Source of the DNA: a virus
IMG/VR virus record: IMGVR_UViG_3300044681_000173
Span: 1 to 40,939 of that record
Strand: one strand, 5' to 3'
Length of the DNA: 40,939 nt
Positions within the stretch are counted from its first letter, which is position 1; the number at the start of each line of letters is the position of its first letter. Made by a program: the position numbers and the translations under genes. Under the pieces are notes generated by a model. The model searched no databases and was not told the origin of the DNA. It saw only the letters and a list, made by a program, of their open reading frames with translations. Positions 1-33,759 of the stretch are shown one piece after another.

Positions 1-59
1 GCCCCCCCCCGCCACCCCCGGGCGGGGGGGCGGGGGCCGGGGGGGGTCTCGCCATCGCG
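1..59. other. C/G homopolymer-rich left end
   Basis: No gene. The first half is C runs and the second half G runs, so the strand can fold on itself into a long GC hairpin. The right end of the window (about 40795-40939) is also G-rich, but no exact direct terminal repeat is visible between the two ends. It could be a true genome end region or a place where assembly broke in homopolymers. Confidence 0.5.
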
Positions 60-129
60 TGATGTGTGAGGGGCGTGTCAGACTGGAAGTGGAAAGGGCC
101 GGGGTGGTCCCGGCTCGGAAGGGGTAGCA
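60..129 (+). promoter_or_regulatory. Repeated leader element 1
   Basis: Positions 60-80 match the conserved block found in five places on this arm (core ATGTGTGAGG followed by CGTGTCA). A hairpin at 96-116 follows, with arms GCCGGG and CCCGGC and loop GTGGT. The Shine-Dalgarno GGAAGGGG (117-124) precedes the GTG start at 130. This copy lacks the second hairpin and the leading TGCAGG. Confidence 0.65.
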
Positions 130-864
130 GTGGCTAGGCCGAATGGGTACGTGGTGTGGGAGGGGCCGTCAGCGTATGACGGTGCGCCCATCGTGGTGAT
201 CGTGACGGGGCTGGTGACGCGGTCACGGAACAGCAAGACGGGCGGGATGGTGCAGACGTACATCCTGCGGCAGGACGTGTCTCCGACTGAGGGGGTGTAC
301 ACGTCGGAGGCGGATGCTTCGATCTGTGGGGATTGCCCGCATCGGGGCGTGATGGTGGAGGGGCGGCGGGCTCGACGCTCGTGCTACGTGAATCTGGGGC
401 AGGGGCCGCTGTCGGTGTGGAAGGCGTATGCCCGTGGCTCTTACCCTCGGGCTGACGTGGCGGATGTCGCCCCGCTGGTGGCGGGGCGGGCGGTGCGTCT
501 GGGGACGTACGGGGATCCGGGCATGGTGCCGCTGTCGGTGTGGCTGACGCTGGTCGAGCGGGCGGCGTCGTGGACGGGGTATACGCACCAGTGGCGGCGG
601 ATCGATTCGGCGTACTCGCTGCTGTTGATGGCGTCGGCGGATTCGGTCGCGGATCGGCGGGAGGCCCGATTGATGGGGTATCGGTGCTTCTACGTGGTGC
701 CGAAGGGCACGCGGTCGGCGGCTGGGGCGGTGCAGTGCCTGTCGGATGCGCGGGGCTTGCACTGTGAGGATTGCGGCGCGTGTGCGGGGACTCGGATGGG
801 GGCGAAGCCGAACGCGGTGGACATCTTCATCGAGGCTCATGGGCCGGGGGCGAAGTACGTCTGA
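130..864 (+). CDS. Conserved phage protein with cysteine clusters (DUF7227-like)
   Basis: 244 residues with a GTG start preceded by GGAAGGGG. It holds two cysteine groups: CGDCPHR with a nearby C in the first third, and CEDCGAC near the C-terminus (about 213-219). These suggest metal binding or disulfides. The N-terminal pattern (Gly-Tyr-Val, then Gly-Pro-Ser, Asp-Gly-Ala-Pro-Ile, then a Ser/Lys-Thr-Gly segment) recalls a widespread phage family that I know as DUF7227; this is recognition from memory, not a search. Function unknown. It is the first gene of the rightward arm and alone in its cassette, since leader element 2 starts right after its stop codon. Confidence 0.8.
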   Translation: MARPNGYVVWEGPSAYDGAPIVVIVTGLVTRSRNSKTGGMVQTYILRQDVSPTEGVYTSEADASICGDCPHRGVMVEGRRARRSCYVNLGQGPLSVWKAYARGSYPRADVADVAPLVAGRAVRLGTYGDPGMVPLSVWLTLVERAASWTGYTHQWRRIDSAYSLLLMASADSVADRREARLMGYRCFYVVPKGTRSAAGAVQCLSDARGLHCEDCGACAGTRMGAKPNAVDIFIEAHGPGAKYV

Positions 865-865
865 T

Positions 866-966
866 TGCAGGATGTGTGAGGGCCGTGTCAGCATGGTGGT
901 AGCCGGGGCTGTGGTTCCGGCTGCTGCCATGTCGCGGATGGCCCGCGACAGGAAGGGATTGAGGCA
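866..966 (+). promoter_or_regulatory. Repeated leader element 2
   Basis: The conserved block lies at 866-890, directly after the upstream stop. Hairpin 1 is 901-922 (arms AGCCGG and CCGGCT). Hairpin 2 is a perfect 8-bp stem at 930-950 (TGTCGCGG and CCGCGACA, loop ATGGC). The Shine-Dalgarno GGAAGGGA (951-958) leads to the ATG at 967. Neither hairpin is followed by a T-tract, so they do not look like intrinsic terminators. Confidence 0.7.
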
Positions 967-1410
967 ATGAGAGAGCGTAAGTCGAAGATGGTGCGTCTGC
1001 TGCCGTCGGATGCGGTGGAGCGGGTGGCGATGAACGTGCTGGCTGCGATGCATGACATTCCGGTGTCGGATCTGCACAACACGCGGCTGATGTCGGATCT
1101 GGTGTTCGCTCAGGTGACGGATGCCAAGTGCGAGGGCTACGGCCCGGAGTTCGCGGTGGTCTGCACTGAGGGCGTGGGTTGGCAGTCGGGTGACGATGAG
1201 CGGATCCTCGTCCCGATGCAGGCGGGGTTCGGTTGGACGTTCACGGTTCCGGTGAGTGTGAACGTGCTGCGGCGTCTGGCTGAGGGCGCTGAGGTGGTGG
1301 ATCTGGCGGATCACGTTCGCCGGTTCGGCGACCGGCTTGAGTGCAATTGGGGGCTGTGGCACGAGTCGCTGGTTGAGGTGGGCGCTGACGTTGAGGAGGT
1401 GCTGCTGTGA
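967..1410 (+). CDS. Hypothetical protein
   Basis: 147 residues, ATG start behind GGAAGGGA. No family recognised. The N-terminus is basic (RERKSK); the rest is mixed alpha/beta with an acidic C-terminus ending in a Glu/Val-rich helix. No signal peptide, membrane segment or clear metal site. It is the first gene of the cassette opened by leader element 2, and its last codons carry the strong GGAGG ribosome site for the next 23-residue gene, so the two are translationally coupled. Confidence 0.7.
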   Translation: MRERKSKMVRLLPSDAVERVAMNVLAAMHDIPVSDLHNTRLMSDLVFAQVTDAKCEGYGPEFAVVCTEGVGWQSGDDERILVPMQAGFGWTFTVPVSVNVLRRLAEGAEVVDLADHVRRFGDRLECNWGLWHESLVEVGADVEEVLL

Positions 1411-1478
1411 CGGTGGTGCTGTGGCTGATGTTCGGGATCGCATTGACGGTCGCATTCGGTCACTGGAATCTGAAGTAG
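1407..1478 (+). CDS. 23-residue membrane peptide
   Basis: A very small gene starting with GTG that overlaps the upstream stop by GTGA. It has a strong Shine-Dalgarno (GAGGAGG, 1393-1399) seven bases before the start. The product is almost entirely one hydrophobic helix (VVLWLMFGIALTVAF) with a short HWNLK tail, so a single-pass inner-membrane peptide is likely. The ribosome site, spacing and overlap make it credible despite its size. Function unknown. Confidence 0.55.
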   Translation: MTVVLWLMFGIALTVAFGHWNLK

Positions 1479-1562
1479 GGCCGTGTGGTTTCGGTGCAGC
1501 CCGCTCCCGTGTGGGGCGGGCTGTGCCGTGACGTGGATGGCCCACGTCGAGAAGGGATAGGC
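1477..1562 (+). promoter_or_regulatory. Repeated leader element 3 (partial block)
   Basis: The linear block is reduced to AGGGCCGTGT (from 1477). Hairpin 1 is large (1498-1522; AGCCCGC pairs with GCGGGCT and extends inward with a G-U pair). Hairpin 2 at 1530-1548 has arms GACGTGG and CCACGTC and the same ATGGC loop as hairpin 2 of element 2, with different stem bases. GAGAAGGGA (1550-1558) is the ribosome site for the ATG at 1563. Confidence 0.65.
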
Positions 1563-2030
1563 ATGAGCACGGACAATTTGGTGGAGCAGATCACTGCGCT
1601 GCTGGAGGCGAAGTACCCGGACCCGTGTGTTGAGGTCGGGGGTTTGGTGGAGCTGGATCGGGCGAAGCGTGAGGCTCGGGATGCTGTGCGGGATGGGATC
1701 GTGGAGTACTTCTACGAGATCCTCGGCAATCACGAGGACATCCTGATCGGGCTGCTGGATCACCTCGACATGTCGCTGCCGCTGAAGCGGTTCAGGGTTC
1801 ATGTCGATTTCCAGTACTCGACGCTGGAGGTGGAAGGGATCGAGGCGAAGTCGGTTGATGATGCGTGCGCGAAGGTGCTCGACGCGCTGGAGTGGCAGAG
1901 CGATGACGAGGTCGAGGTGGAGTGGGGTCTCAGCCTTCAGGGCAAGCATGCGTCTGCTGACTTCTCGTTCAGCCTCAGCGAGACGTTCGATCTGTCGGAT
2001 GCTGACGTCGAGGCTGAGGAGATGGAGTGA
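1563..2030 (+). CDS. Acidic hypothetical protein
   Basis: 155 residues. I chose the ATG at 1563, behind GAGAAGGGA, over an in-frame upstream start that would run through the structured leader. The protein is strongly acidic, with a helical first half and a beta-rich second half, and ends in an Asp/Glu run. There are no cysteine clusters or membrane segments. No family recognised. The 3' end overlaps the next start (TGATG), indicating coupled translation. Confidence 0.7.
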   Translation: MSTDNLVEQITALLEAKYPDPCVEVGGLVELDRAKREARDAVRDGIVEYFYEILGNHEDILIGLLDHLDMSLPLKRFRVHVDFQYSTLEVEGIEAKSVDDACAKVLDALEWQSDDEVEVEWGLSLQGKHASADFSFSLSETFDLSDADVEAEEME

Positions 2031-2293
2031 TGGCATCCATTGACACGGTGTGGGTTGACCCTGACGGTCTGTTCATCATCGACATGCATGTGTGTGCTGA
2101 GTCGCTGAACGGTGACTGGTGCCACCAGATCGGCGGCGTGCATCGGGCGGGCAAGTCGTGCGTCTGGTTCGCCGTGGTCGAGGTGCTGCCCGACGGGTCG
2201 GGTGAGTGCGTCGATGAGGACAGCAGTCTCGCTGGGGCTGTGAGCAAGGCGCATGATCGCTGGCCTGTCGTTCAGCAAATGCAGGATGTGTGA
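2030..2293 (+). CDS. Small hypothetical protein
   Basis: 87 residues. The ATG at 2030 overlaps the upstream TGA, with GAGGAG about nine bases upstream; a GTG one codon earlier is also possible. Acidic, with three scattered cysteines and a few Trp, no recognised domain. Its last codons and TGA lie inside the conserved block of leader element 4, so the block overlaps coding sequence here. Confidence 0.65.
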   Translation: MASIDTVWVDPDGLFIIDMHVCAESLNGDWCHQIGGVHRAGKSCVWFAVVEVLPDGSGECVDEDSSLAGAVSKAHDRWPVVQQMQDV

Positions 2294-2387
2294 GGCGCGT
2301 GTCACGATTGATGGTGAGAGCCGGGGCAACCCGGCTCGATCCATGAGCCGTGAAGTACACGACTCAACCGAATGAAGGGAGCAAGAC
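2280..2387 (+). promoter_or_regulatory. Repeated leader element 4
   Basis: Conserved block at 2280-2304. Hairpin 1 (2318-2337) is a perfect 8-bp stem, GAGCCGGG with CCCGGCTC, closed by the GNRA-type tetraloop GCAA. Hairpin 2 (2344-2366) pairs TGAGCCGTG with CACGACTCA with one mismatch and loop AAGTA. The start site GAAGGGAGCAAGAC before the ATG at 2388 is identical to that of element 5. Confidence 0.72.
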
Positions 2388-2648
2388 ATGAGCACGAAGG
2401 TTGAACTGCGTCCGCTGTCCGTGATCGGCGGCGAGATCGCTGAGGCTGGCCGCAGCAGTGGCTGGTACTGGGCGGCCAAGCCGTACGTCGAGGCGATGTG
2501 CTGGCTGCACTCGGTCAATGACCGTTACGGCATGGACTCGGGCCGGAGCGTGGTGATCTACGCGCTGGCGAACATGCAGTCGTGGCGGGGCGAGCAGGCC
2601 CGCTCGATCAAGGCTGAGTTGAAGGCTCACCTGAAGGCGGGTGAGTGA
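2388..2648 (+). CDS. Hypothetical protein
   Basis: 86 residues, ATG behind GAAGGGAGCAAGAC. It appears helical, with a Trp/Tyr-rich centre (WYWAAK) and a basic C-terminal helix. No known family seen. First of four tightly packed genes that end with the DNA methyltransferase. Its end forms the GGTGAGTGA junction that recurs at two other gene borders in this arm. Confidence 0.65.
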   Translation: MSTKVELRPLSVIGGEIAEAGRSSGWYWAAKPYVEAMCWLHSVNDRYGMDSGRSVVIYALANMQSWRGEQARSIKAELKAHLKAGE

Positions 2649-2868
2649 CGTGAACGTTGACGCTGACATCGAGTACGAGGGCTGGTCGGACACGTGCAAG
2701 AACGGTCACGACAAGCGGGCCACTGGCTGGACCCAGTTGAACGGGTGCCGTGAGTGCAAGCGTGAAGCGGCTCGCCGTTACCGGGCTGCCCGTAAGGCGG
2801 GTGTCCCGTTGCAGGAGACGAAGCGTCAGCCGAGGAAAGACCTCGGCTTCGATCAAGTGAAGGGGTAG
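2641..2868 (+). CDS. Small zinc-finger protein (HNH-associated type)
   Basis: 75 residues from the GTG at 2641; a second GTG at 2650 is an equally plausible start. It contains C-K-N-G-H followed about 15 residues later by C-R-E-C-K, the pattern of the treble-clef zinc site often attached to phage HNH endonucleases. The catalytic HNH His/Asn segment is not visible and the tail is short and basic. A DNA-binding zinc protein is the safest reading. Confidence 0.6.
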   Translation: MSDVNVDADIEYEGWSDTCKNGHDKRATGWTQLNGCRECKREAARRYRAARKAGVPLQETKRQPRKDLGFDQVKG

Positions 2869-2872
2869 TGGC

Positions 2873-3046
2873 ATGAAGATCGAGGGGTACAGCCTCAGCA
2901 ATGAGGACGGGTCTGCCGCCATATCTACGTGGCTGCTGGACGATGAGGAGATCGGTGACGTGATCGGCTCCATCATCGAGGAACTGGAGTCGGTGCGTTC
3001 GACTGGCCGGAACACCATCACGTTCTGGTTCGTGGACGGTGAGTGA
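2873..3046 (+). CDS. 57-residue acidic hypothetical protein
   Basis: Starts with ATG behind AGGGG (2861-2865) and ends at the TGA two bases before the methyltransferase start. The product is acidic, with an Asp/Glu-rich helical middle (LDDEEIGDVIGSIIEELE) and a short beta-like end. Size, ribosome site and tight spacing support it as a gene; function unknown. It resembles small acidic proteins that accompany phage DNA-modification genes, but that is only context. Confidence 0.55.
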   Translation: MKIEGYSLSNEDGSAAISTWLLDDEEIGDVIGSIIEELESVRSTGRNTITFWFVDGE

Positions 3047-3047
3047 C

Positions 3048-4019
3048 ATGCGGTTCGCGTCGGTGTTTGCCGGGATCGGTGGGTTCGATCTCGGTTTCGA
3101 ACAGGTCGGCATGACGCCGACTGCTCAAGTGGAAATCAGTGACGGGCGACGGGACATCCTCGCCGCCCATTGGCCTAACGTCAGAAGGGGAAGTGATGTC
3201 TGCTCAGTCAGCGGCACAGAATTGGGAGAGCCCGACCTCATCGTCGGAGGATTCCCTTGTCAGGACACATCCATCGCAGCACCTCACCGTGCTGGGCTCG
3301 ACGGCAAGCGATCCGGCTTGTTCTACGAGTTCGTCCGCCTCGTTGACGAGGTCGCCCGACTCGTCGATGAGAGCAAGCCGCGATGGGTCTGCATCGAGAA
3401 CCCGGTCGGGCTCCTCAAGTCCAACGGAGGGAGGGACATGGCAGCAGTGGTCGGGAACTTGGCTGACCTCGGGTATGGGTGGGCGTACCGAGTGGTGGAC
3501 AGCCAACATCTCGGCAGCGCCCAGCGACGGCAGCGAGTGCTCGTTGTTGGACATCGTGGAGGAGATGCCCGACCCGCATGGTCCGTGCTGGGTGACGCCG
3601 GAGCAGGCAGTGAAACTGCTGCCTCGTCTGGCAAGCGCCGGGGACAGGCTGGACCCTCGCTTGCGAGCAGCCCTCACGGACCTAGCGGGACGCTGATCTG
3701 GCGCAAGTCGGCTCGGCCTCGCAAGTCGCTGGCCGATGGCGGCTATGAGACGTGGGTTCCTGATGACAGGTCGAACACGTTGACCGGGTTCGATGGTGGC
3801 AATGCTGCACGTCAGACGCATCTGATCATGCAGCAGGGTCAGCTCCGCACGTTGACGCACGTGGAGTGGGAGAGGTTGCAGGGTTTCCCCGATGAGTGGA
3901 CTGCGGGGCTGGGTTCGAAGGACAGGTACTCGGCTCTGGGTGATGCGATGAACGTGCCGATGGCGCAGTGGCTGGGTCGCAGGTTCTCGCAGGTTCACGC
4001 CGACGTTCCGATGCTGTGA
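3048..4019 (+). CDS. dcm: DNA (cytosine-5-)-methyltransferase
   Basis: 323 residues from the ATG at 3048; an in-frame GTG lies at 3039. It transfers a methyl group from S-adenosylmethionine to C5 of cytosine in DNA. Family motifs are in order: motif I FAGIGGFDLGF (about 7-17), motif IV GFPCQDTS with catalytic Cys71, motif VI ENPV (117-120), motif VIII QRRQR (159-163), then the target-recognition region and the C-terminal motifs IX/X (LTHVEWERLQGFPDEW, and GDAMNVPMAQWLG). All key residues are intact. No restriction endonuclease lies nearby, so it is probably an orphan enzyme protecting phage DNA or altering its regulation. Confidence 0.93.
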   Translation: MRFASVFAGIGGFDLGFEQVGMTPTAQVEISDGRRDILAAHWPNVRRGSDVCSVSGTELGEPDLIVGGFPCQDTSIAAPHRAGLDGKRSGLFYEFVRLVDEVARLVDESKPRWVCIENPVGLLKSNGGRDMAAVVGNLADLGYGWAYRVVDSQHLGSAQRRQRVLVVGHRGGDARPAWSVLGDAGAGSETAASSGKRRGQAGPSLASSPHGPSGTLIWRKSARPRKSLADGGYETWVPDDRSNTLTGFDGGNAARQTHLIMQQGQLRTLTHVEWERLQGFPDEWTAGLGSKDRYSALGDAMNVPMAQWLGRRFSQVHADVPML

Positions 4020-4020
4020 A

Positions 4021-4125
4021 TGCAGGATGTCAGAGGGGTGTGTCATTGTTGAGGTGAGGGCAGGACGTTGTGCCTGCCTGATCCTGAGCCATGACCGTCA
4101 TGGTTCTGACTGAAGGGAGCAAGAC
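4021..4125 (+). promoter_or_regulatory. Repeated leader element 5
   Basis: Conserved block at 4021-4045, right after the methyltransferase stop. Hairpin 1 (4058-4079) pairs GGCAGG with CCTGCC. Hairpin 2 (4086-4106) pairs GAGCCATGA with TCATGGTTC around the loop CCG. The same 16 bases as in element 4 (GAAGGGAGCAAGACATG without its last base) form the start site for 4126. Confidence 0.72.
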
Positions 4126-4332
4126 ATGGCTAGGTATCGGGCGCGTGTTTCGTACACGCAGTACCGCTACTTCGATTTCGAAGCGGACAACGAGGATCTG
4201 GCGTGGGATCACGCCGACAAGTTGATGGAGGTCTTGGATGTGTCGACCATCATCAATGAGTGGGAGTCGTTCCACCCCGATGCGCTGAGTGCGGAAGACA
4301 TCGAACTACTGAGCGACAAGGAAGGTGAGTGA
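4126..4332 (+). CDS. Small hypothetical protein
   Basis: 68 residues, ATG behind GAAGGGAGCAAGAC. The N-terminus is beta-like with alternating aromatics (YTQYRYFDFEA), followed by acidic helices. Its shape recalls small phage proteins with a one-sheet fold, but no family is recognised. It ends in KEGE at the recurrent GGTGAGTGA junction, so the next gene is coupled. Confidence 0.65.
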   Translation: MARYRARVSYTQYRYFDFEADNEDLAWDHADKLMEVLDVSTIINEWESFHPDALSAEDIELLSDKEGE

Positions 4333-4333
4333 G

Positions 4334-4534
4334 ATGTGCTTCAACGATTACGACACTGAGTGCGGATGCACCCCGGTCGACGGGCTCGTAACCCACGCCC
4401 TCGAATGTCCGCTCAACACGGTCAGCATCGATGACCTCGACGCTGTCATATGGCACGGGGAAGTGGTCGTCATCGAACGGGATGACGACATCGATGAGGA
4501 TCTGGCAGCGGCGCTGTGGGGGTGGGAAGAGTGA
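4334..4534 (+). CDS. Small acidic cysteine-containing protein
   Basis: 66 residues from the ATG at 4334 (a GTG at 4325 is in frame). The first 27 residues carry four cysteines: C2, CGC at about 11-13, and C26 before PLN. The rest is very acidic. The pattern CFNDYDTECGC with a downstream His and Cys resembles a small metal site found in short actinophage proteins; function unknown. It overlaps the next GTG start by four bases. Confidence 0.6.
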   Translation: MCFNDYDTECGCTPVDGLVTHALECPLNTVSIDDLDAVIWHGEVVVIERDDDIDEDLAAALWGWEE

Positions 4535-4731
4535 TCATCATCATCATCTTCGCCACCCTCGTGGTCGCAGCTCTTTTCATCACCTACTACATGGGCAAGG
4601 ACGTTGGCTACCAGTACGGGTGGGATGACTGCGATCAGCGTGTCTTCCTGTGCCGTGATTGCAGGATGTCAGCGGTACGTGCCACAATGGATTCAACGCA
4701 CAGCAACTCAATCAACCAGAAAGGAAAGTGA
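4531..4731 (+). CDS. Small single-pass membrane protein
   Basis: 66 residues from the GTG at 4531, which overlaps the upstream TGA; GGGTGGGAAGA lies just before it. The N-terminus is a clear membrane helix (runs of Ile, then FATLVVAALFITYYMG). The soluble part contains CDQRVFLCRDC, a possible metal site. Its 3' part carries the block of leader element 6, so regulatory and coding sequence overlap. Function unknown. Confidence 0.55.
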   Translation: MIIIIIFATLVVAALFITYYMGKDVGYQYGWDDCDQRVFLCRDCRMSAVRATMDSTHSNSINQKGK

Positions 4732-4736
4732 TCTAG
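4660..4736 (+). promoter_or_regulatory. Repeated leader element 6 (block only)
   Basis: Positions 4660-4684 match the conserved block (TGCAGGATGT then CGTGCCA) inside the end of the preceding gene. No clear hairpin follows. The ribosome site AAAGGA (4720-4725) is about 11 bases before the ATG at 4737. It is the most diverged full-length copy. Confidence 0.55.
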
Positions 4737-5672
4737 ATGACCACATATGTGGAGCACATGCGCCAGCAGAACGCGCTGGCGCGCACGCTGGTCGACGTGA
4801 CTGGCGCAACCAGCATCAGCGAGGTGCTGGAGCAGGCCGACCTCGATTGGGAGGTGAGCCTGCACGACCTCAAGTACACGCCGGGTTCCGACATGCCATC
4901 AGTGGACATGCCGGATCACTTCGCCGTTGCCCGGTCGGGCCTGACCCCGCTGGGCGTGGTCGGCCAGCGATACACCCCGATCCAGAACTCGGATGCGTTC
5001 GCCCCGCTTGAGTACCTTGAGCGGGAGGGATTCATCTCGGGCTATGACCAAGCCGGGGTGCTCGGCGACGGGCAGAAGGTGTTCGTCATCGCCACGCTGA
5101 ACAAGGAGCTGAACGTCGGCGACCCGCACACCAACAGGTTGCTGTTCTCCACCACGCACGACGGGACGGGATCGTTCAACGTGCGGGCAATCAGTCAGCG
5201 CCTGTTCTGCTCCAACCAGATCCCAAGGCTCAACTCTTTGGGCAAGTCTCTTGGCATCTCGATCCGTCACACCCAGTCAGCGCAGCAGCGCATGCTGAGG
5301 GTGAAGGATCTCGTGCTCGCTGAGATGCGGTGGATCGATGAATATCAGAAGGGATATGAGACCCTTCTTGATTCACCCGCCCAAGGTGATGCGGTGCTGG
5401 CGTTCGTCAGCATGATCGCCCCCACGCCTGTGCCTCCGGCCACCGAGCGGATGGTGCGGGCTGCCGAGAAGAAGCGTGAGGACATCCTTCAGCGGATCTA
5501 CGGCAGCACCAACAGCAACATCAGGGGCACGTGGGCCGCTGCATTCCAAGGCGCAGTCGAGTACTCCGACTTCGACGCACGAGGCAACAACGCCGAGCGC
5601 ATCCTGCTCGGCAGGGATGTCGCGTTCAAGCGTGAGGCGTGGGATCTCGCCCTTCAAATGGCTACTCGCTAG
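4737..5672 (+). CDS. DUF932 / phage-plasmid-like protein (TIGR03299 type)
   Basis: 311 residues. The sequence matches the DUF932 family by eye: an N-terminal region with FAVARS, then VVGQRYTPIQNSDAF, the beta-rich HDGTGSFNVRAISQRLFCSN core, and a long helical C-terminal half with AAEKKRE. The family is common in actinophages and plasmids; its biochemical role is unsettled, though it often accompanies DNA-modification or recombination genes. It is the largest well-conserved gene of this arm besides the methyltransferase, and a strong hairpin follows it. Confidence 0.85.
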   Translation: MTTYVEHMRQQNALARTLVDVTGATSISEVLEQADLDWEVSLHDLKYTPGSDMPSVDMPDHFAVARSGLTPLGVVGQRYTPIQNSDAFAPLEYLEREGFISGYDQAGVLGDGQKVFVIATLNKELNVGDPHTNRLLFSTTHDGTGSFNVRAISQRLFCSNQIPRLNSLGKSLGISIRHTQSAQQRMLRVKDLVLAEMRWIDEYQKGYETLLDSPAQGDAVLAFVSMIAPTPVPPATERMVRAAEKKREDILQRIYGSTNSNIRGTWAAAFQGAVEYSDFDARGNNAERILLGRDVAFKREAWDLALQMATR

Positions 5673-5684
5673 CCACCATCAACT

Positions 5685-5724
5685 GCCCCCGTCCCGGTGT
5701 CATCCCTTCCACCGGGGCGGGGGC
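5685..5724 (+). terminator. Long GC hairpin after the DUF932 gene
   Basis: Arms at 5685-5699 and 5710-5724 pair over 15 bases (GCCCCCGTCCCGGTG against its complement with one G-U), with a 10-base loop. TTCCCCTT follows. It is probably a terminator or a partial one, because a gene with a perfect AGGAGG ribosome site begins only 19 bases later. Confidence 0.7.
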
Positions 5725-5742
5725 TTCCCCTTAGGAGGACAC

Positions 5743-5874
5743 ATGGCAAGCAGAACAGGGACAGGCAAGTTCGGGTGGTGCCTCGACGGGCACCATGAAG
5801 GATGCAAGTACCTCATCAACACGACAGACGGTGCGAAGTGCTGCACCTGTGAGTGCCACGCTAGTAAGGACTAG
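5743..5874 (+). CDS. 43-residue Cys/His-rich protein
   Basis: ATG at 5743 with an ideal AGGAGG (5733-5738). Basic N-terminus, then C-x4-H-H-x2-C, and CCTCECH near the end: enough Cys and His for a small zinc knuckle. It ends 14 bases inside the convergent sigma-factor gene, so the two transcripts overlap tail to tail. Function unknown. The hairpin just upstream may attenuate its expression. Confidence 0.6.
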   Translation: MASRTGTGKFGWCLDGHHEGCKYLINTTDGAKCCTCECHASKD

Positions 5875-6496
5875 GCCCGCCCAGTGCCTCGATCACTTGC
5901 CGCATAGCCCGCTGACTCAACTGCTCCACACGCTGCGGGCTGATGCCCCAGTCGTCACCGATAACCTGCAACGTGGTGCCGTAGGCGAACCGCTCCAGCA
6001 GGATCGAGTACTCCCGAGGTTGCAGCTCCTTCAATGCTGACTCGACATCGGCCACCATCGCCAGCACATCACCGCCCTCAGATGCTGGCTTGGTTCTGCG
6101 CTTACCGCCCAACTCAGCCGGGTCAAGGATCTGACCAGCGAGAGATCCGGTGTCGTTGTAGATCACCTCGATGATCTTCTCAATCATCTCCGGTCGGTAG
6201 AAGTACTCGTCCTCTGGACGGTAGCCCGACTTCGATGCCTTCTCTCGCCGTGCGTAACGGTCACACTCCCGAACCATGGACACGAGCAGAGCCTTCTCAC
6301 CCTGCCGTCTCTCATGCGGGTCATCCCTGATCAGGTACTCAGCGACCTTGCCCTTCCTGCGGAAGGCGTACTCGGATGCGACCTGACGCAGGTCGTCTGC
6401 CTGCACGTAGCCGTGGTACTTGTACGCCACCTTACGGGCGGCAATCGAAGCGATCTCAATTACTTCGATCCAGATCGGATCATCTGCCTCAATCAT
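5861..6496 (-). CDS. Sigma-70-like RNA polymerase sigma factor
   Basis: 211 residues. The C-terminal 60 residues look like sigma region 4: ALKELQPREYSILLERF followed by a helix-turn-helix (TTLQVIGDDWGISPQRVEQLSQRAM), the module that binds -35 elements. The N-terminal half contains a region-2-like helical segment (VQADDLRQVASEYAF, and ALLVSMVRECDRYARRE). It would direct host RNA polymerase to phage promoters. It is the last gene of the leftward early module, seven bases after the exonuclease gene. Whether it recognises the repeated blocks of the rightward arm is untested. Confidence 0.8.
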   Translation of the reverse strand: MIEADDPIWIEVIEIASIAARKVAYKYHGYVQADDLRQVASEYAFRRKGKVAEYLIRDDPHERRQGEKALLVSMVRECDRYARREKASKSGYRPEDEYFYRPEMIEKIIEVIYNDTGSLAGQILDPAELGGKRRTKPASEGGDVLAMVADVESALKELQPREYSILLERFAYGTTLQVIGDDWGISPQRVEQLSQRAMRQVIEALGGPSPY

Positions 6497-6503
6497 CCTG
6501 CAA

Positions 6504-7046
6504 TCACCTGTGAAGATTCTTGATGTAGGGGAGAACGTGCGGCACGAGTTCGCGCAGCACCTTCACGTCTTGCTCGCAGTGGTACACCACTTCATCCATG
6601 GCGTCCTTGTTCAAGGTGGCAGCGAGCTGCCACTGCTCCCATGAGATCGCCGTCTTAGCCTCGCCCAGTTCGAAGAACCTCTGGGCGTTCTCCAGTTTTG
6701 CTGAGCCGATCCGCATTGACGCTGAGTTCAAGTACCACCGGGTATCCATGTGCCACTCGACATTCACGGGCCGCTCGCCCGCCTTGGCGAGACGGGCATT
6801 GATGAATGGGATGTCGAACAGTTTGCTGTTGTGTCCGCAGATCAACTTGTACTTCTCAAGGTGGGTGCGGATGGCGACAGCCAACTTGCTGTCATCGATA
6901 TTCGTCCGACCGCGCCACGGTTTTTCGTCCGCCCGGAACGTGGTCACCTCACCTGTGTTCCCATCAAGGAACGAGCAGCACAGGATGCGACCCATCAGAC
7001 CCTTCAGATCAGTGGTTTCTATGTCGAACACGACACTCGGAATCAT
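6504..7046 (-). CDS. 3'-5' exonuclease, RNase H-like (DEDD)
   Basis: 180 residues. It contains the three exonuclease motifs: FDIETTD (Asp8, Glu10), HNSKLFDIPFI (Asp78) and HCEQDV (Asp160), which bind two metal ions and remove nucleotides from DNA 3' ends. Family members usually have Tyr-Cys-x-Gln-Asp at motif III; here His156 sits at the usual Tyr position and Tyr155 precedes it. There is no polymerase domain and no DNA polymerase gene elsewhere, so it probably serves proofreading, repair or recombination. ATGA overlap with the upstream gene. Confidence 0.85.
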   Translation of the reverse strand: MIPSVVFDIETTDLKGLMGRILCCSFLDGNTGEVTTFRADEKPWRGRTNIDDSKLAVAIRTHLEKYKLICGHNSKLFDIPFINARLAKAGERPVNVEWHMDTRWYLNSASMRIGSAKLENAQRFFELGEAKTAISWEQWQLAATLNKDAMDEVVYHCEQDVKVLRELVPHVLPYIKNLHR

Positions 7047-9975: not shown

Positions 9976-10337
9976 ACCGCCCCCAGTTGCCGGAGGAGAT
10001 CGACCAGTGTGTCGAGGGACATCGTGACGTAGGACTGATGCACGCCCTTGCCTCGCCGCTTGTGTACCACTATCGGTACGGTTTCACCCTCAGCCGGGTA
10101 CTTCTCCTGATAGTTCTGCGCCTCGATCTCGGACTCCGCGATCCACGTCGGGAGATCCATGGCCTTCCTGTTCTTCAGCTCCGCGATCACTGTCACGTTG
10201 CTCGTGGGGAACGCCACATCGCCGATGTCTTTCACCCCGGTGCGAGGTAGACGCTTGGCGCGGATTCCCTGTGATTGCAGATAGTCAGCGCACTCGGTTT
10301 CGAATCTACTGCCACGAGCCTTCGCTGCCGCAGTCAT
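9972..10337 (-). CDS. Holliday junction resolvase-like nuclease
   Basis: 121 residues from the ATG at 10337 (ATGA overlap with whiB). The fold is of the Hjc/VRR-like PD-(D/E)XK type: KARGSRFETECADYLQSQG, then GVKDIGDVAF and VIAELKNRK, with catalytic Glu13, Asp40, Glu53 and Lys55. Such small nucleases cut branched DNA to resolve recombination and replication intermediates before packaging. The family tendency and its place beside primase and ATPase genes support this, but substrate specificity cannot be read from sequence. Confidence 0.8.
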   Translation of the reverse strand: MTAAAKARGSRFETECADYLQSQGIRAKRLPRTGVKDIGDVAFPTSNVTVIAELKNRKAMDLPTWIAESEIEAQNYQEKYPAEGETVPIVVHKRRGKGVHQSYVTMSLDTLVDLLRQLGAV

Positions 10338-10564
10338 GCTGCCCACCCCTTGCGCTTCAGGGTGTACCGCTCACTAGCGCTCAACCCTCCCCAAATTCCG
10401 AACTCGGCATGCTCTGAGCCGTAGGCCAGACACTCGGCACGGATGTCGCAGGCGGCGCACACGCGCCGCACGAGAGGTGGTACTTGCGCCCGGTAATCGG
10501 GGAAGAATGCTTCTGGATCTGTCCCGATGCAGTTCGCAAGGGTCCAGTCTGGTTCTACTGCCAT
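10334..10564 (-). CDS. whiB: WhiB-family iron-sulfur transcriptional regulator
   Basis: 76 residues with an AGGAGG ribosome site. The four cluster cysteines are present (Cys12, and Cys36-x2-Cys39-x5-Cys45), with the family's GIWGG turn at about 56-60 and a basic C-terminal helix (LKRKGW) for DNA contact. WhiB proteins bind a 4Fe-4S cluster and act with the housekeeping sigma factor; they are confined to actinobacteria and their phages, which fixes the host group. It overlaps the ATPase end and the resolvase start, within the replication operon. It may redirect host transcription or block superinfection, as known for other phage WhiB proteins. Confidence 0.92.
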   Translation of the reverse strand: MAVEPDWTLANCIGTDPEAFFPDYRAQVPPLVRRVCAACDIRAECLAYGSEHAEFGIWGGLSASERYTLKRKGWAA

Positions 10565-12727: not shown

Positions 12728-12923
12728 CGCGCACACCCTGCATTCGCTGGTAGATCTCATGGTTCAGAGACTCGATCATCGAATGAACTGCGTTACCAGC
12801 GGCCAGATACACGGCTGGCCGCTCAGGCACCTGAGCAACCTTGCCCAAGTAGTAGGAATGCTGGCAGCGTAGGAACGTACTCAACTGTGAGAAGCTCCTG
12901 TGTGCCGGTATCTCGCCGATCAT
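12720..12923 (-). CDS. Cas4/RecB-like Fe-S nuclease, N-terminal part
   Basis: 67 residues, ATG overlapping the upstream stop. HRSFSQLSTFLRCQHSYYL, then PAVYLAAGNAVHSMIE, is the typical N-terminus of Cas4/RecB-like nucleases: the first cluster cysteine (Cys20) and the G-x3-H motif (Gly43, His47). The nuclease core follows only after the intervening zinc-ribbon gene, in a separate frame. Seen: both parts are intact and carry good start sites. Inferred: they assemble into one enzyme. A recent frameshift is unlikely, because a whole gene lies between. Confidence 0.8.
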   Translation of the reverse strand: MIGEIPAHRSFSQLSTFLRCQHSYYLGKVAQVPERPAVYLAAGNAVHSMIESLNHEIYQRMQGVRGE

Positions 12924-13192
12924 TGAACCCCCACAAGGATGTAGTCGAAGTCTTCGGTGTCAACATCTGTCATGCTCCAGCCCGGAAGATTCCCAGACTC
13001 CAGCACCGCTTCGAAACCCATCGACTTCAGCAGTTGCATGATGGGCTTCAAACTTTCGGGGTCGGTGTGCCATGGGTACACGAGCATCCCCCGAGTGACG
13101 CTTGGGTTCAGGACGATCTCCTTGTCACCAAGGCGAACCGCGTGAACCCAGTTCTCGATGTCATCAATGCGCACGCGCAGAACGTACTCCAT
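12920..13192 (-). CDS. Hypothetical protein
   Basis: 90 residues. Beta-rich start (YVLRVRIDDIENWVHAVRLGDKEIVLNP), then a helix LKPIMQLLKSMGFEAV and an acidic end. No family recognised. The ribosome site is weak. An 11-bp palindrome, TGACAATGTCA (13198-13208), lies just upstream of the start and could be an operator. It is the first gene after the terminator at 13315-13359, so the replication operon may restart here. Confidence 0.6.
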   Translation of the reverse strand: MEYVLRVRIDDIENWVHAVRLGDKEIVLNPSVTRGMLVYPWHTDPESLKPIMQLLKSMGFEAVLESGNLPGWSMTDVDTEDFDYILVGVQ

Positions 13193-13385
13193 ACCTGTGA
13201 CAATGTCATGGGATTTGGTTCGGCGTGTCGCAGGCCCTCTTACACCCCCGCAATGCAGGATACGTCGGGGGCTATACCGGGTGACGGGCGACGGTGACGG
13301 AGCCAGAAACGGAAAGCCCCCCTTACCCGCTCAGATGCTCTGGGGGGGTAGGGGGGGCTGCCCGGACTCTGGGCTCTGGTGAGGG
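13193..13385. other. Intergenic region with terminator and possible operon restart
   Basis: No gene. It holds the HTH-gene terminator (13315-13359), a GC-rich stretch with CCCCCG and CGGGGG arms (about 13245-13270), and the palindrome TGACAATGTCA (13198-13208) next to the first start of the nuclease operon. No convincing -35/-10 pair is visible. Confidence 0.4.
13315..13359 (-). terminator. Intrinsic terminator after the HTH gene
   Basis: On the minus strand, AGCCCCCCCTACCC (13359-13346) pairs with GGGTAAGGGGGGCT (13328-13315) over 14 bases with one mismatch. TTTCCGTTTCT follows. It would separate the regulator from the replication operon. Confidence 0.75.
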
Positions 13386-13808
13386 TTACGGATTGCGAAC
13401 GAGGCCCGTGTCCTCGGGCCGAGCCGCGACGTAGTAGAACCCCTCCGGGCTGTCGTACTCGTAGTGAACCCGGAGGTTCTTGCGCAGTAGCTCCGTCTTC
13501 CAACGGTCGAACCGCCGCTGATCCACTGGTCGAACATCCAGCCCGCGATTAATGCGGGCTGCGATGCGCAACATCGACAGCGGGTAAGCGTGGTTGTGGT
13601 CGAGAGCAATCCGCTCCCACGGGATCTCGTCGTACCTGACTCGATTGGTCAAGCCAATCCGTGACAGGTGACCACTCACCGTGGAAAGGGCAACGTCCTC
13701 GTTGTAGATCTCCTTGATCCTCTGCTGGATCTCTTCATGTGTCAGACCGTCTTCTTCAACCCAGTGCTCAAGCACTGAGTCAGAAGGCATCTTCCGCCGT
13801 GCTGGCAT
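13386..13808 (-). CDS. Helix-turn-helix regulator, candidate repressor
   Basis: 140 residues from the ATG at 13808, with AAAGG six bases upstream; an in-frame ATG nine codons earlier lacks such a site. The helix-turn-helix is at about 21-52 (LTHEEIQQRIKEIY, then ALSTVSGHLSRIGL). The rest is basic and ends in a beta-like YEYDSPEGFYYVA segment. It is divergent from the integrase across a region with two dyads, the position expected of an immunity repressor or lysogeny regulator. No Cro- or excisionase-like gene is obvious. Confidence 0.7.
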   Translation of the reverse strand: MPARRKMPSDSVLEHWVEEDGLTHEEIQQRIKEIYNEDVALSTVSGHLSRIGLTNRVRYDEIPWERIALDHNHAYPLSMLRIAARINRGLDVRPVDQRRFDRWKTELLRKNLRVHYEYDSPEGFYYVAARPEDTGLVRNP

Positions 13809-13845
13809 TACACACCTTTCGTGGGCATCACTCAATCCTCAAGTC

Positions 13846-13873
13846 AGACTACAGAGTTTTGCTCAGAACACAA
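13846..13873 (-). promoter_or_regulatory. Candidate promoter of the HTH gene
   Basis: On the minus strand TTGTGT (13873-13868) and TAGTCT (13851-13846) are spaced by 16 bases, the same spacing as the integrase and late promoter candidates. The -35 overlaps the arm of the inverted repeat at 13871-13900. A second pair, TTGATT (13946-13941) and TAGTTT (13924-13919), also with 16 bases, lies upstream. Confidence 0.35.
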
Positions 13874-13900
13874 TCACCACATCCCTCAATGGGGTGATTG
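13871..13900. promoter_or_regulatory. Inverted repeat, candidate operator
   Basis: CAATCACC (13871-13878) and GGTGATTG (13893-13900) are perfect 8-bp inverted arms 14 bases apart, between the HTH gene and the integrase. The dyad abuts a candidate -35 of the HTH gene. Confidence 0.5.
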
Positions 13901-13911
13901 TACTTTATGTT

Positions 13912-13924
13912 TAGTTTCAAACTA
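13912..13924. promoter_or_regulatory. 13-bp palindrome, candidate operator
   Basis: TAGTTTCAAACTA is a perfect palindrome around one central base. It covers the TAGTTT -10 of the upstream minus-strand promoter candidate. Confidence 0.4.
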
Positions 13925-14007
13925 GGGCAAAATGGGACAAAATCAAGGCTCGAACTTGTACCCAAGGTCGATGACCACACCCTGCGTTAACATGTCTCAA
14001 TGCTTAC

Positions 14008-14035
14008 TTGACACTTGAACGGTAGGCATTACTCT
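14008..14035 (+). promoter_or_regulatory. Integrase promoter (leaderless transcript)
   Basis: TTGACA (14008-14013) and TACTCT (14030-14035) are spaced by 16 bases. A start about seven bases after the -10 falls at the ATG at 14043, and there is no Shine-Dalgarno, so the mRNA is probably leaderless, as is common in actinobacteria. Confidence 0.65.
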
Positions 14036-14042
14036 TGATCAC

Positions 14043-15020
14043 ATGGAATCGCCGATGTTGTCAGTTGCCATCGAGGAGTTCCTTCAGTGGAGGGCAAGGC
14101 ACTACCGCCCCAACACGGTGAAGAACTCCGAAACAGCTCTGCGCCTGCTCATGCAGGCGCTGGGCGATCTGCCCGTAGATGAGATCAATCGGGACGACGG
14201 CGAGCGGATCATCGCCTACCTGCATGAACGACAGCAGGCATCCACCGTCAACCAGAACCGGACGGTTCTACAGGCGTTCTTCAAGTGGCTGGTCGAGGAA
14301 GGCTATGTGCCCCTGACGTTCAACCCCTTCCGCAACATCCGGCCTGACCGGGTGCCGCAGAAGGACTACCCACGCCTCACCGTGGACGAGTTCGAACCTT
14401 TCCTCGACTCGGCCACGTCACCCAGAGACAGGATCTTCTGCGCCCTTGGCCTGTACCTGTTCCTGCGCGGATCCGAGGCGGCCTCCCTGCGGGTACGCGA
14501 CCTCCGCCTAGGCGAAGGCACGCTGACCGTCACTGTCCACAAGACCAACGACATTGATGTCATGCCACTGAACACGGAACTGGACCGGGAGCTGCGCCGC
14601 TGGCTAACCCACATGACCAGTGAACTTGGCCCCCTCGACCCCGACTGGTACTTGGTGCCAGCATTCACCGCCAGCAGGTTCACCCAGAAACTAGCCCCCA
14701 CCCGGCCCATATCGAAGCCAGAAGCGCCCATCAAGCGGACACTGGAAGCCTACGGGTGGGAGGATACCTACTGGGCTGGGGCGCACCTCCTGCGCCGCAG
14801 CGGGGCACGCTGCCTCTTCGATGAACTCTGTGACCAAGCCGTTGACGCAAGTCTCCGCATCGTTTCATCACAGTTACATCACAAAAATGTCGCAATGACG
14901 GAGCGATATCTTGGTATAACAGCGGATAGAGCCCGCCGTGACAGGCTCCTAAAGGGAGCAAACATGTTCACCAGAAAGTCCATGGATAACGTCATCACTC
15001 TAAGGGGGGTCGCACAGTGA
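14043..15020 (+). CDS. int: Tyrosine integrase
   Basis: 325 residues. The N-terminal SAM-like core-binding domain (about 5-90, NTVKNSETALRLL, then TVNQNRTVLQAFFKWL) is followed by the catalytic domain with all key residues: Arg142 (LRGSEAASL), Lys167, His248 and Arg251 (HLLRRSGAR), His279/His280 (LHHKNV) and nucleophile Tyr289 (TERYLG). It would integrate and excise the phage at an attachment site, so the phage is temperate. There is no long arm-binding domain ahead of the SAM-like part. A zinc-ribbon gene overlaps its stop; no excisionase was recognised. Confidence 0.93.
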   Translation: MESPMLSVAIEEFLQWRARHYRPNTVKNSETALRLLMQALGDLPVDEINRDDGERIIAYLHERQQASTVNQNRTVLQAFFKWLVEEGYVPLTFNPFRNIRPDRVPQKDYPRLTVDEFEPFLDSATSPRDRIFCALGLYLFLRGSEAASLRVRDLRLGEGTLTVTVHKTNDIDVMPLNTELDRELRRWLTHMTSELGPLDPDWYLVPAFTASRFTQKLAPTRPISKPEAPIKRTLEAYGWEDTYWAGAHLLRRSGARCLFDELCDQAVDASLRIVSSQLHHKNVAMTERYLGITADRARRDRLLKGANMFTRKSMDNVITLRGVAQ

Positions 15021-15235
15021 AAATCAGCGTTACTGCGTGCGACAAGTGCCACGTTCGAAGTGAGAAGAAACCAGTGGCAGAGTGGTCGCTCCGGCGAGGA
15101 GCAACCCGCTGGAGCGGAGAACTCTGCGACAAGTGCTTTCAGGAAATCCTGAAGACCTACCAGCCGTCATCGATGTCTCGTGCTCGCCACGTCATCAACG
15201 AGACAAAGATCAACGACATTCCAAAACTGCCCTAG
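15017..15235 (+). CDS. Small zinc-ribbon protein
   Basis: 72 residues. GTG start overlapping the integrase stop (GTGA), with AGGGGGG upstream. CDKC near the N-terminus (residues 8-11) and CDKC at about 37-40 form a zinc ribbon; the tail is basic (SRARHVINETK). Such proteins occur in actinophages, often near DNA-binding genes. Co-transcription with the integrase suggests an accessory or regulatory role, possibly as a directionality factor, but there is no specific sign of that. Confidence 0.65.
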   Translation: MKISVTACDKCHVRSEKKPVAEWSLRRGATRWSGELCDKCFQEILKTYQPSSMSRARHVINETKINDIPKLP

Positions 15236-28256: not shown

Positions 28257-31200
28257 GCCGCCTCTCCCAACCACGGAGCAAGGTCATCGTTCTCAAGGAA
28301 ATTGTCATAGAAGTCAGCGAACTCCAGACTGACCATGCGATGACCAGCAGCCCACTCGGCAAACATTGACTTGACAGTCTTTGAATCTGCTCCCTGAGCG
28401 ATGGCATCCAATGCCATCTGGCGCTCATTCATGTACACGCCGATGTTCTGCCACAGATTCGTTTGCCCGCGAGACTGACTGAAATTCGGATCAGCCATCG
28501 CAATCTCAATTGCGTTCAAGTAGGTAGGCGTCATGTCGGTGTACGTCTGGTAGTTCACGTCCCACGTGTCACCAAATCGCTGAGACATCTCCACCTTCAC
28601 GAAGTTGTCCCACATGGCCTTGACGCCCTCAGCGCCCTTCGCGTCAATACTTGTCAGGCCAAGCTGCGCAAGCGCATCATCGCGAAGCGCCTTCTCCTTG
28701 TTGTAGACGTTCCACGCCTGCTTCATAATGAGATCAGTCTTCATCTCATCGGGCTTCTTCCTGCGACGGAACATGTCTGCCGTACCGGGAACCTCCTGAG
28801 TTCCCCAATACTGGTAGACACCCTGATCAAACGGGCCGTTTTGCGTACCCGCCGTCAAGATTCCGATAGCGCGAGGATCCAACTGCGCAAGCGTGCGAAC
28901 CAGAGAGTCATTCTGCGCGATGACCTCGTACGACTCAATCGTGTTACCGAGCGTGCTTGCCGCCTTCTCAGACGTTGACTCAATCATCGGCAGGAAGTCC
29001 TCACCGAACTTCTCCAAGAACTGATCAACTCGCTGCTGGTACGTCATGTTCGGATCAGCCATCAACTGACGCCAGAAATCCTCTTGCATCTGGTACTTCG
29101 ACTGCCGAGTAAACGTGAACGGTGCAAGAAGGGAAGCGCCAACGCTGAACTTGTAGAACCCGTTGACGTTGTCCATGATCTTGGCAACATCCGGCATCAG
29201 CTCCGGGGGAGCACCAGCCTTGTACCAGTCGACAAACGCCGACTTCATCATCGAGTCTGCAATGCCCACGTACATCTGGTCACTTTCGCCAGAGATGAAC
29301 TGGTACATCTTCTTCGCCGTCGTAGGGGCAAGCCCCTCCCACCAGTTGTTCGACAGGACACCGAACGGGGCGATCTGGTTGTAGATCTCGGGCGGGAGTT
29401 GGTCCCGCAGCATTGCCTGAGTGTCCGGCTTGCCCGCCAAGAACATCTGGATTGGAACCTGTACAACAGGCCCGAAACCCGGCAGGAACGGCGTCTCTCC
29501 GGGGGTAACCACGTTGATCGATCCCTGCGGGATTGCGACACCCACACCATTCGTGACGTTATCCATCAGCCACTTGTTGATGCCCGATGGCAGGCGGATG
29601 TAGCGGTCAGTAGAACCAGTGAGGAACGCCCACCTGTCTGACGGGACAGGTCGGCCCTCCTTATCCACAACCATGCCCAACTGGTTAGGCAGGTTCCACA
29701 GGATTGAAGCGCGTACCGCGACCGAAGGATCGTCAATGACGATCTTCGTCCACACCTTCATGCTGTTCTCCCACGCGGGAAAGAACGGAACAATCCAGCG
29801 GAAGAACGCCGCAGGGTTCGACAGGCGCTCAATCGTGTACAACGTGTCCTTCAGGTCACGCAGCGCAACAGCCTTGGCCGACCTATCAATCTGCCGGAGA
29901 ACATCCTCAGTCAGTTCAGTGCCCTGCCGCTGCGCGACACCGAGCATGTTGTCGAACTCACGAGACCACACGGTGGCGTAGTAGGGGTGCCGAACGAGTG
30001 CCGTTTCGGGCTTGGCCCCAATCCACTGGAAGATCTTGTTGAGAGGGACGTTGAAGATGTCGCTAGCGGTCTTGATGTTGAACCGTGAGGCAACCTCGCG
30101 ACCATGGATGGCGCTGAGCATCTCCGGGTAACCCTTGGTGAACGGCTCGATGGCAGCCTTGTAGGCGAAGCCGCCAGCCTTTTCAGTTGTCGCGGCAAGG
30201 CGAATCGCCTCGTCCGTGGGCAAGTAGCGCAGGATCATGCCATCCACTTCGGCAACATGTCCCTCGACGTTCTTGCGCGAGATGCGCATGTCACGCCGGT
30301 AGTACTTTCCCGCGTTCGAACGCAGCCAGTTGCTGACCTCAACCACCGGGTCAATGCCACTGTTCGGGTTCGCCAGTGCCGCTGCACGCTTCTCCAGAAG
30401 CATCATCGCCACTGGGTCGTTGCGCATCTGCGTGACAGACTGGTCAAGTTCGTCGTAGTACTGCGGGTCCGTTGGCTTGACCTTGACGTAGTTGCCCTCT
30501 TGCAGGCGAAGGTTTCGCGCCCGCCCGGACACCGATTCAAGAACCAGTGCGTTGGTTTCGCCCATGCCCGCGAGTTCGCGGGCCACGCTGCCCTCAGCTC
30601 CACCAAAAGCGGAGTACGAGCCCATGTCGCCGAAGTCGCGTGTACGAGAATCGACCCGTTCCTTCGTGCCGATCCTTTGCCGCGTGGCAATGATCTCATC
30701 GAGCCGCGCCTGCTGGTTGGCGATCTGCACCCGCAGGGCGGTCGTCTCAGCGTCCTGTACACCCTGAAGTAGAAGCGTGTCGAGAACGTTGTTCATCTCG
30801 CCAAGTTCACGAATGGCGCGATCTTCTGCTCTGCGCAACTGCCCGCCAGTCACCGCTCGCCGCAGGCCACGGCCAATGTTGACACCGCCATGAACCACGG
30901 CGGGACCAAGATGGCCTATCATCGGCAAAAGACCGACGGTGGCAAACGACCGAAGCCAGCCCTCCAGAACGTTTCGCTGGGTGTAACCCAAGCGAATAAG
31001 CACCCCGGCCTTCCACAGCGACATGTACGTGTCGGCTGCACCCTTGAGGGTGCCAGCGACTCGTCGCAGGGCTAGTGAGTTCTCGGCCTTGCTCATGGCG
31101 CTGCCCAAGTCATCGGCGTACTTCACCAGAATGGACGCGGTCTCATCGATAACCCGCATGTCCATCATCGGTAGTTTCGTCTCTAACTGAGAACGAAGCA

Positions 31201-33175: not shown

Positions 33176-33317
33176 CCCTCCCCTGAACGATGGTGAGGAA
33201 GGCGTCGCGCTGCTCCGCCGACTCCCACGGTGTCATGCCAAGCCCGAAGATGACGCCACCCGCGTGGAGGCCGAGAACCTCCACGGCAGCGGCGACATCC
33301 TCTTCAAACGAAGGCAT
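33141..33317 (-). CDS. 58-residue hypothetical protein
   Basis: Starts at the ATG that overlaps the upstream TAA (TAATG) and ends 35 bases inside the giant virion gene. The product has a helical N-terminus (PSFEEDVAAAVEVLGLHAGG), a short hydrophobic stretch, then TPWESAEQRDAFLTIVQG and a polar tail. The coupled start is its main support. Small adaptor-like proteins often precede large virion genes; no family known. Confidence 0.55.
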   Translation of the reverse strand: MPSFEEDVAAAVEVLGLHAGGVIFGLGMTPWESAEQRDAFLTIVQGRDGLGEQASNPA

Positions 33318-33757: not shown

Positions 33758-33759
33758 GG

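Follow-up and report, generated by a model that had tools for sequence, protein, structure and literature searches.

A repeated promoter-like block with putative repressor sites and leader hairpins in the early arm of a probable actinophage

Introduction

Among the described systems closest to the one analyzed here, phage R4 is reported to have a repressor-stoperator system (PMC10276819), and recent work interprets the extended start-associated sequences (ESAS) found in cluster K mycobacteriophages as SigA-like promoters that occur in repeated form (PMC11373665). We analyzed the 40.9-kb phage record IMGVR_UViG_3300044681_000173 (positions 1 to 40,939, the whole stretch being called the window below), in which a rightward arm (54-5672) begins divergently from the terminase gene and carries a repeated block associated with leader hairpins. 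A model's earlier annotation, made from the letters alone (the original prediction), had described six such elements and offered three roles for them: phage promoter, antitermination site or translation control. It had also compared them to the cluster K repeats, aptly so, given that interpretation of ESAS. We propose, with a probability of roughly 0.7, that the repeated unit is a composite early-gene control module that combines a repressor site, an extended -10 promoter and leader hairpins.

Results

The window was scanned with the block pattern TGCAGGATGT-N8-CGTGTCA, allowing up to three mismatches, and 100 dinucleotide shuffles served as the null. Copies were found at 56 (three mismatches), 866 and 2280 (none), and 4021 and 4660 (one each), all on the plus strand; the shuffles averaged 0.10 copies and 0/100 gave five, so the predicted repeat is real. 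A reduced copy near 1477 keeps the center TGnnGTAGGGCCGTGT and lacks both GCAGG and any -10. Hairpins follow five of the six copies, and two hairpins follow four of them (866, 1477, 2280 and 4021), as had been counted from the sequence; copy 56 has one and copy 4660 none. The long GAAGGGA-type ribosome site, as GGAAGGG or GAAGGGA, precedes the start codon in five copies; copy 4660 has GAAAGGA. Two other parts of that description needed amendment: copy 56 does not lie at the 3' end of a gene, as all had been said to, but in the gap divergent from the terminase gene; and conservation continues 3' beyond the 25-nt block to about +38. The elements are laid out as follows.

54 to 91, plus strand: predicted promoter block of copy 1, with a degenerate operator-like part (TCGCGTGATG), TGAGGG and a putative extended -10, TGT-CAGACT (79-84)
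96 to 116, plus strand: single leader hairpin of copy 1, then Shine-Dalgarno GGAAGGGG (117-124) and a GTG start at 130
864 to 874, plus strand: operator/stoperator-like site ATTGCAGGATG of copy 2, overlapping the -35-like TTGCAG
877 to 894, plus strand: spacer box TGAGGG (877-882), TG (886-887) and -10-like CAGCAT (889-894) of copy 2, with a predicted transcription start at about 901
894 to 929, plus strand: leader hairpin 1 of copy 2, a 15-bp stem whose bases from about 901 lie downstream of the predicted start
930 to 950, plus strand: leader hairpin 2 of copy 2, abutting Shine-Dalgarno GGAAGGG (951-957), with ATG at 967
1484 to 1563, plus strand: structured leader whose block is degenerate and lacks a -10; hairpin 1 at about 1492-1528, hairpin 2 at 1530-1548, Shine-Dalgarno at 1551-1557
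2278 to 2308, plus strand: copy 3, with operator-like AATGCAGGATG (2278-2288), TGAGGC and -10-like TGT-CACGAT (2303-2308)
2311 to 2365, plus strand: two leader hairpins of copy 3 (2311-2344 and 2345-2365), then Shine-Dalgarno GAAGGGAG and ATG at 2388
4019 to 4049, plus strand: copy 4, with operator-like AATGCAGGATG (4019-4029), AGAGGG and -10-like TGT-CATTGT (4044-4049)
4059 to 4106, plus strand: two leader hairpins of copy 4 (4059-4078 and 4086-4106), then Shine-Dalgarno GAAGGGAG and ATG at 4126
4658 to 4688, plus strand: copy 5, with operator-like ATTGCAGGATG (4658-4668), putative -10 TGC-CACAAT (4683-4688), no hairpin, Shine-Dalgarno GAAAGGA and ATG at 4737
About 901, 2315, 4056 and 4695: predicted transcription starts of copies 2, 3, 4 and 5

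The unit is made of separable modules, namely an operator-like 5' part, a promoter-like remainder and RNA hairpins. Contigs whose terminase is 72 to 87% identical to that of the window were found, and comparison showed the copies to be conserved, homologues of them occurring in about ten related phage contigs. A weight matrix built from the window copies yielded further copies in L016, L017, L018, L023 and L062 (our record handles), in the arm divergent from the terminase gene, and additional copies were later found in L013, L150, L154, L156, L246 and L249. The exact 25-nt pattern, searched against IMG/VR, returned 10 single-copy contigs, mostly apparent chance matches, those in L013 and L014 being real.

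Beyond its first 11 bp, the block fits an extended -10 promoter, TGnYAnnAT. The copies read TG-n-YAnnAT at indices 22-30, with TTGCAG or ATGCAG 18 nt upstream of the -10-like hexamer. When 24 copies were scored at 35 offsets against a standard -10 matrix, the fixed offset ranked first in 13/24 copies (0.7 expected) and among the top three in 21/24, and its mean score was 2.93 versus 0.07 at the next offset. A phage promoter is thus the best fit of the three roles that had been offered, a -10-like hexamer recurring at one fixed position in 24 copies. Relative to the predicted start, the positions invariant over 21 distinct copies are G-34, T-28, G-27, G-23, G-21, G-20, T-15 and T-7, the two T residues at -15 and -7 being present in 21/21 copies and the TG being conserved. 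Copies without a hairpin mostly show clear hexamers (CATAAT, CACAAT and CATGAT), and the TGC-CACAAT of copy 5 is the best -10 among those of the window. From these features, we infer promoter activity and a start point for the block.

A different reader of the promoter is conceivable, as the window encodes a sigma factor of its own.

5861 to 6496, minus strand: phage sigma factor (Pfam sigma-70 region 4), a candidate reader of the block or of other phage promoters

If this protein, and not host sigma-A, recognized the block, TGCAGGATG together with the spacer box would form the -35 and YAnnAT the -10, and the arm would have middle or late timing. The factor is conserved in the family, its predicted structure aligns with solved sigma factors over most of its length (the top matches listed are nearly all sigma factors or sigma-containing complexes), which marks it as a genuine sigma factor, and the hexamer is usually CAnnAT, not TATAAT, with strict sigma-A matches absent. 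However, relatives with different early-arm repeats (GTTTCCCTC in L021 and TTGCAACAnnTTTGACA in L022) have kept both the factor and the recognition helix of its region 4 (QRV-E/D-Q). Because the helix is unchanged across these differing repeats, the sigma factor does not track the block, and co-evolution of the two was set aside as unsupported; it is the repressor with which the block's 5' part goes along. We therefore consider recognition by the phage factor possible but unlikely.

Repeats of other kinds occur in relatives. Two relatives have the same promoter layout with a different upstream box (L021, GTTTCCCTCGTGAATGCCATAATGG; L022, TTGCAACATGCTTGACACATGTTTCATAATGGG). Phage L292, whose repressor is 42% identical, shows no early block that is clearly repeated. 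The early arms of three lower-GC relatives (L028, L029 and L034) contain inverted repeats, AGCANATC-AAA-GATNTGCT, upstream of GAAAGGAGCAA ribosome sites; the two arms of the repeats vary symmetrically, as expected of dyad operators or hairpins in RNA. In relatives further removed, the early arms have different sequences repeated at gene starts (CTTAAGACAGGAGAAAAAATG in L094 and TACCGTTAACATGAAAGG in L165), and those of L086 and L089 show long purine runs at gene starts, e.g., AGAGGGAGAGGGCAAG.

The first 11 bp of the block, ANYGCAGGRTG, also recur alone on the leftward strand, reading with transcription. Exact ANNGCAGGRTG sites number nine in the window, versus 0.98 in dinucleotide shuffles, with four on the plus strand in the rightward arm and five on the minus strand in leftward genes. 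All of them (9/9) read with transcription, as do 32/33 over the six site-bearing records when positions are compared with gene directions. Three of the stand-alone sites and the repressor gene that probably acts on them are as follows.

6494 to 6504, minus strand: ATTGCAGGATG, standing alone where the exonuclease and sigma genes meet; it overlaps the start codon of the sigma gene and is conserved in relatives
12734 to 12744, minus strand: AATGCAGGGTG, standing alone within the leftward operon and oriented with transcription
13978 to 13988, minus strand: stand-alone site AACGCAGGGTG in the integrase-repressor intergenic region, where relatives carry the same kind of site
13386 to 13835, minus strand: putative immunity repressor (PHROG 3929), 34% identical to phage R4 gp29, with a family profile matching PDB 7R6R
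Predicted repressor-binding sequence: ATTGCAGGATGTG

The repressor matches PHROG 3929 (E=1e-23) and R4 gp29 (34% identity over 140 amino acids, E=2e-18), the latter being annotated as "similar to L5 gp71." Searched against the PDB, its family profile has as top match 7R6R (E=7e-4), the crystallized immunity repressor of the cluster A mycobacteriophage TipsytheTRex, to which it is distantly homologous. In a weak AlphaFold model, an N-terminal three-helix region and a second helical region lie roughly where the two DNA-binding domains of 7R6R are found.

Upstream regions of 15 nonredundant repressor genes were then searched de novo for enriched 8-mers, without use of the block. The sequences GCAGGGTG, ATTGCAGG and AACGCAGG occurred in 9, 8 and 8 of them, respectively, while the best shuffled 8-mer reached at most 4. 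The site lies upstream of repressors at least 50% identical to that of the window and not of those at most 42% identical. Genes related to that of the repressor, a homologue of R4 gp29, thus have this site upstream by an independent search, and ANYGCAGGRTG is therefore probably an operator or stoperator of the L5/R4 type; we infer that the repressor binds it. This tie to the phage's own repressor lay beyond the reach of the original prediction. A repressor site had also been considered in the TGAGGG box; this candidate was dropped since the box is missing from the stand-alone sites.

Such sites could instead form a pure stoperator array, in which bound repressor stops elongation, the -10-like element is incidental and a single upstream promoter serves the whole arm. 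The sites are indeed asymmetric, read with transcription and lie in or near short intergenic gaps, like those of L5 (PMC6550527). Yet TGAGGG and TGnYAnnAT are strongly conserved in the early-arm copies only, stand-alone sites being without them, and the rest of the block occurs with a poor operator part (54, and 2433 in L016), so we regard an array of this kind as improbable.

Homologues of the repressor, the integrase and g15017 co-occur in phages that bear the block or sites, and none of the three was found in relatives without the block. The set of three is limited to part of the family (window 12920-15235 compared with L245, L249 and L252). Such a pattern would be expected if the family had acquired or shed a lysogeny module along with the sites that its repressor may bind.

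The hairpins are true RNA structures, judged by comparison of base pairing across seven two-hairpin leaders. In this set, 97.5% of cells are paired and 14/23 pairs show compensatory change, whereas 0/500 shuffles did as well and no slid alignment register came close to native pairing. The covariance-model check suggested earlier was run and placed the elements far above chance: the model matched a leader at 5387-5465 of L150 (E=2e-20) that was outside the training set and lacks the block. Because that leader has no block and the window leader at 1484 lacks a -10, the hairpins are more than a component of the promoter and would appear to act independently of it. Hairpin 1 starts at or within a few bases of the predicted transcription start in most copies, and hairpin 2 of the 866 type directly adjoins the Shine-Dalgarno sequence. 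Opening of the ribosome site was easier than in shuffles for 15/18 leaders from their own start and 13/18 in readthrough, with a mean z of about -0.65, a modest effect over what are related sequences. Translation control, one of the roles first suggested, may apply to the hairpins only, with modest support.

Two further explanations concern the hairpins directly. One treats the block as the linear RNA box of a nut- or put-like antitermination site, with the hairpins as its stem-loop partner. A linear box followed by a hairpin is seen in 4/5 window copies with a full or near-full block, the stem in the two-hairpin class takes in some bases that precede the predicted start, and this stem is retained in a leader that lacks the block. 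Block and hairpins also occur apart, however: copy 4660 and its relatives in L013, L150, L156 and L246 have a block and no hairpin, and at 1484 and L150 5387 the leaders show hairpins although their block is not intact. By itself, the block's 5' portion is found again at the repressor locus, upstream of repressor genes, pointing to DNA binding, and a scan of 1-5900 revealed no intrinsic terminator on the plus strand for readthrough. This role, also among those first put forward, is disfavored, and we give it very little credence.

The other takes the hairpins as transcription terminators or attenuators of the upstream unit, which would suit GC-rich stems located between cassettes; terminators without U-tracts have been reported in the actinophage phiC31. 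Here, no U-tract follows the hairpins, and a search for a GC stem plus T-run gave no plus-strand match in 1-5900. At 1484 and L150 5387, the gene has no recognizable promoter of its own downstream of the hairpins, and terminating efficiently there would leave it silent, and hairpin 2 of the 866 type abuts the Shine-Dalgarno sequence. Termination is, in our judgment, distinctly improbable.

Rfam yielded no match at E<=1 in 1-6000. Tentatively, and with less confidence than the composite module commands, the two-hairpin leader might represent a structured-RNA family new to actinobacterial phages and able to function in the absence of the promoter. It would be a natural insulator or processing element that sets, for every cistron of a long phage transcript, where the 5' end lies and how exposed the ribosome site is, and this phage would have coupled it to a repressible promoter starting inside the same hairpin.

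The leftward genes include the terminase, the portal and other structural genes, and the leftward operon contains replication and recombination genes, a WhiB protein and the sigma factor, with the repressor at the operon start beside the integrase.

14043 to 15020, plus strand: tyrosine integrase
10334 to 10564, minus strand: WhiB protein

Given the integrase gene, the phage is probably temperate, and the presence of WhiB in 17/20 records suggests an actinobacterial host. The sigma factor (5861-6496) and WhiB are present across most members of the family, even in some that have no integrase. No prophage with a window-type terminase was found among the genome contigs searched, and a DNA methylase was the sole match when known phages were searched by nucleotide BLAST. 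Upstream of the terminase gene, the gap (40507-40939; same region in L016, L017 and L018) contains conserved noncoding stretches (GGACTTGTGTGGAAGTCC-like, GGATGCTTAA and AAATTTC) that are perhaps a late promoter or packaging site.

Discussion

In the composite module that we propose, the asymmetric 11-bp site ANYGCAGGRTG (about -37 to -27), read by the phage's own L5/R4-type repressor, would overlap the -35 region of an extended -10 promoter. Transcription would start about 7 nt downstream of the -10, at or near the first leader hairpin in most copies, and one or two GC-rich RNA hairpins would follow, reaching as far as the Shine-Dalgarno sequence. Lysogens would keep the block promoters shut through the repressor, and at the stand-alone sites, bound repressor could also halt elongation in a stoperator-like manner. 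During lytic growth, each cassette would have a separate promoter to drive it. The most likely role of the hairpins is to shield the 5' end or allow its processing and to stop the GC-rich leader from covering the ribosome site, in both local and readthrough transcripts.

Several observations weigh against this proposal. A strict sigma-70 consensus scan of 1-5900 gave no promoter; the hexamer reads C/T-A-n-n-A-T, position -12 being C in most cases, and the -35 goes no further than a resemblance to TTGCAG. The spacer TGnnTGAGGG is highly conserved, absent from the stand-alone sites and unexplained. Only 8-9 sites were found, compared with 20-30 in cluster A phages (PMC6550527); those at 6298 and 34237 lie inside coding sequence, and about one exact chance site is expected among the nine. 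In three phages, the operator part is poor in the copy next to the terminase gene (window 54, L016 2433 and L023 555). The link between site and repressor is correlative and in part reflects shared descent; the AlphaFold model of the repressor is weak (predicted local distance difference test score, 69), and Foldseek returned no match to 7R6R. Finally, helix 1 is 91.7% paired, with 2/7 pairs compensatory, and in the two-hairpin class, the base of stem 1 pairs with sequence upstream of the predicted start that would be missing from a locally started transcript. This pairing fits either readthrough transcripts or a start further upstream.

If the composite module is correct, the repressor and its sites are likely the immunity system of a phage family known chiefly from metagenomes, which bears on how that family stays dormant. 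A seemingly isolated repeat would be tied to the L5/R4 repressor-stoperator class, and such sites could be built into a repeated promoter-plus-leader module. The window also offers a testable case of covarying hairpins that lie between promoter and ribosome site and persist where the promoter is gone. The covariance model and site consensus are directly usable for searching other actinophages.

Compared with the repressor-stoperator systems of R4 and L5 (cluster A), the window has a homologous repressor, multiple short asymmetric sites along the direction of transcription and at least one site near the repressor gene. It differs in site sequence (ANYGCAGGRTG) and in the small number of sites, and four of these lie within a repeated promoter-plus-leader unit, whereas most cluster A sites lie outside promoters. 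The ESAS of Adephagia and TM4 (cluster K) are likewise promoter-like repeats in intergenic positions, ~46 bp long and placed at the head of some genes, and their -35 and -10 boxes are separated by 17-18 nt (PMC11373665). Their 17-bp imperfect inverted repeat does not support RNA pairing (PMC3203893), whereas the downstream hairpins here covary as RNA. The 13-bp start-associated sequence GGGATAGGAGCCC is not enriched in the window (two matches with two mismatches, 0.79 expected).

The repeated motif GGGTTGCCGACTCCCTTAC of phiC31, which we take to mark early promoters, resembles the block in lying upstream of early genes in a single orientation and differs in having no sequence similarity to it. 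In the R4-like Streptomyces phage Lannister, which has a homologous repressor, some early gaps run from a promoter-like stretch through two successive hairpins to a Shine-Dalgarno sequence (L290 31224-31341); its hairpin 1 resembles a tRNA T-arm minihelix, whereas that of the window does not. Over 28739-33961 (minus strand) of L290, the early gaps repeatedly contain this hairpin, which resembles a tRNA T-arm plus acceptor minihelix (GGTTCGAGTCC between complementary arms), often followed by a second hairpin and a ribosome site and with no Rfam match at E<=1. Overall, the repeat is best interpreted as a set of early promoters under repressor control that are joined to covarying leader hairpins, a variant of the actinophage control known from L5/R4 stoperators and cluster K ESAS, with an RNA leader that lacks an Rfam counterpart.

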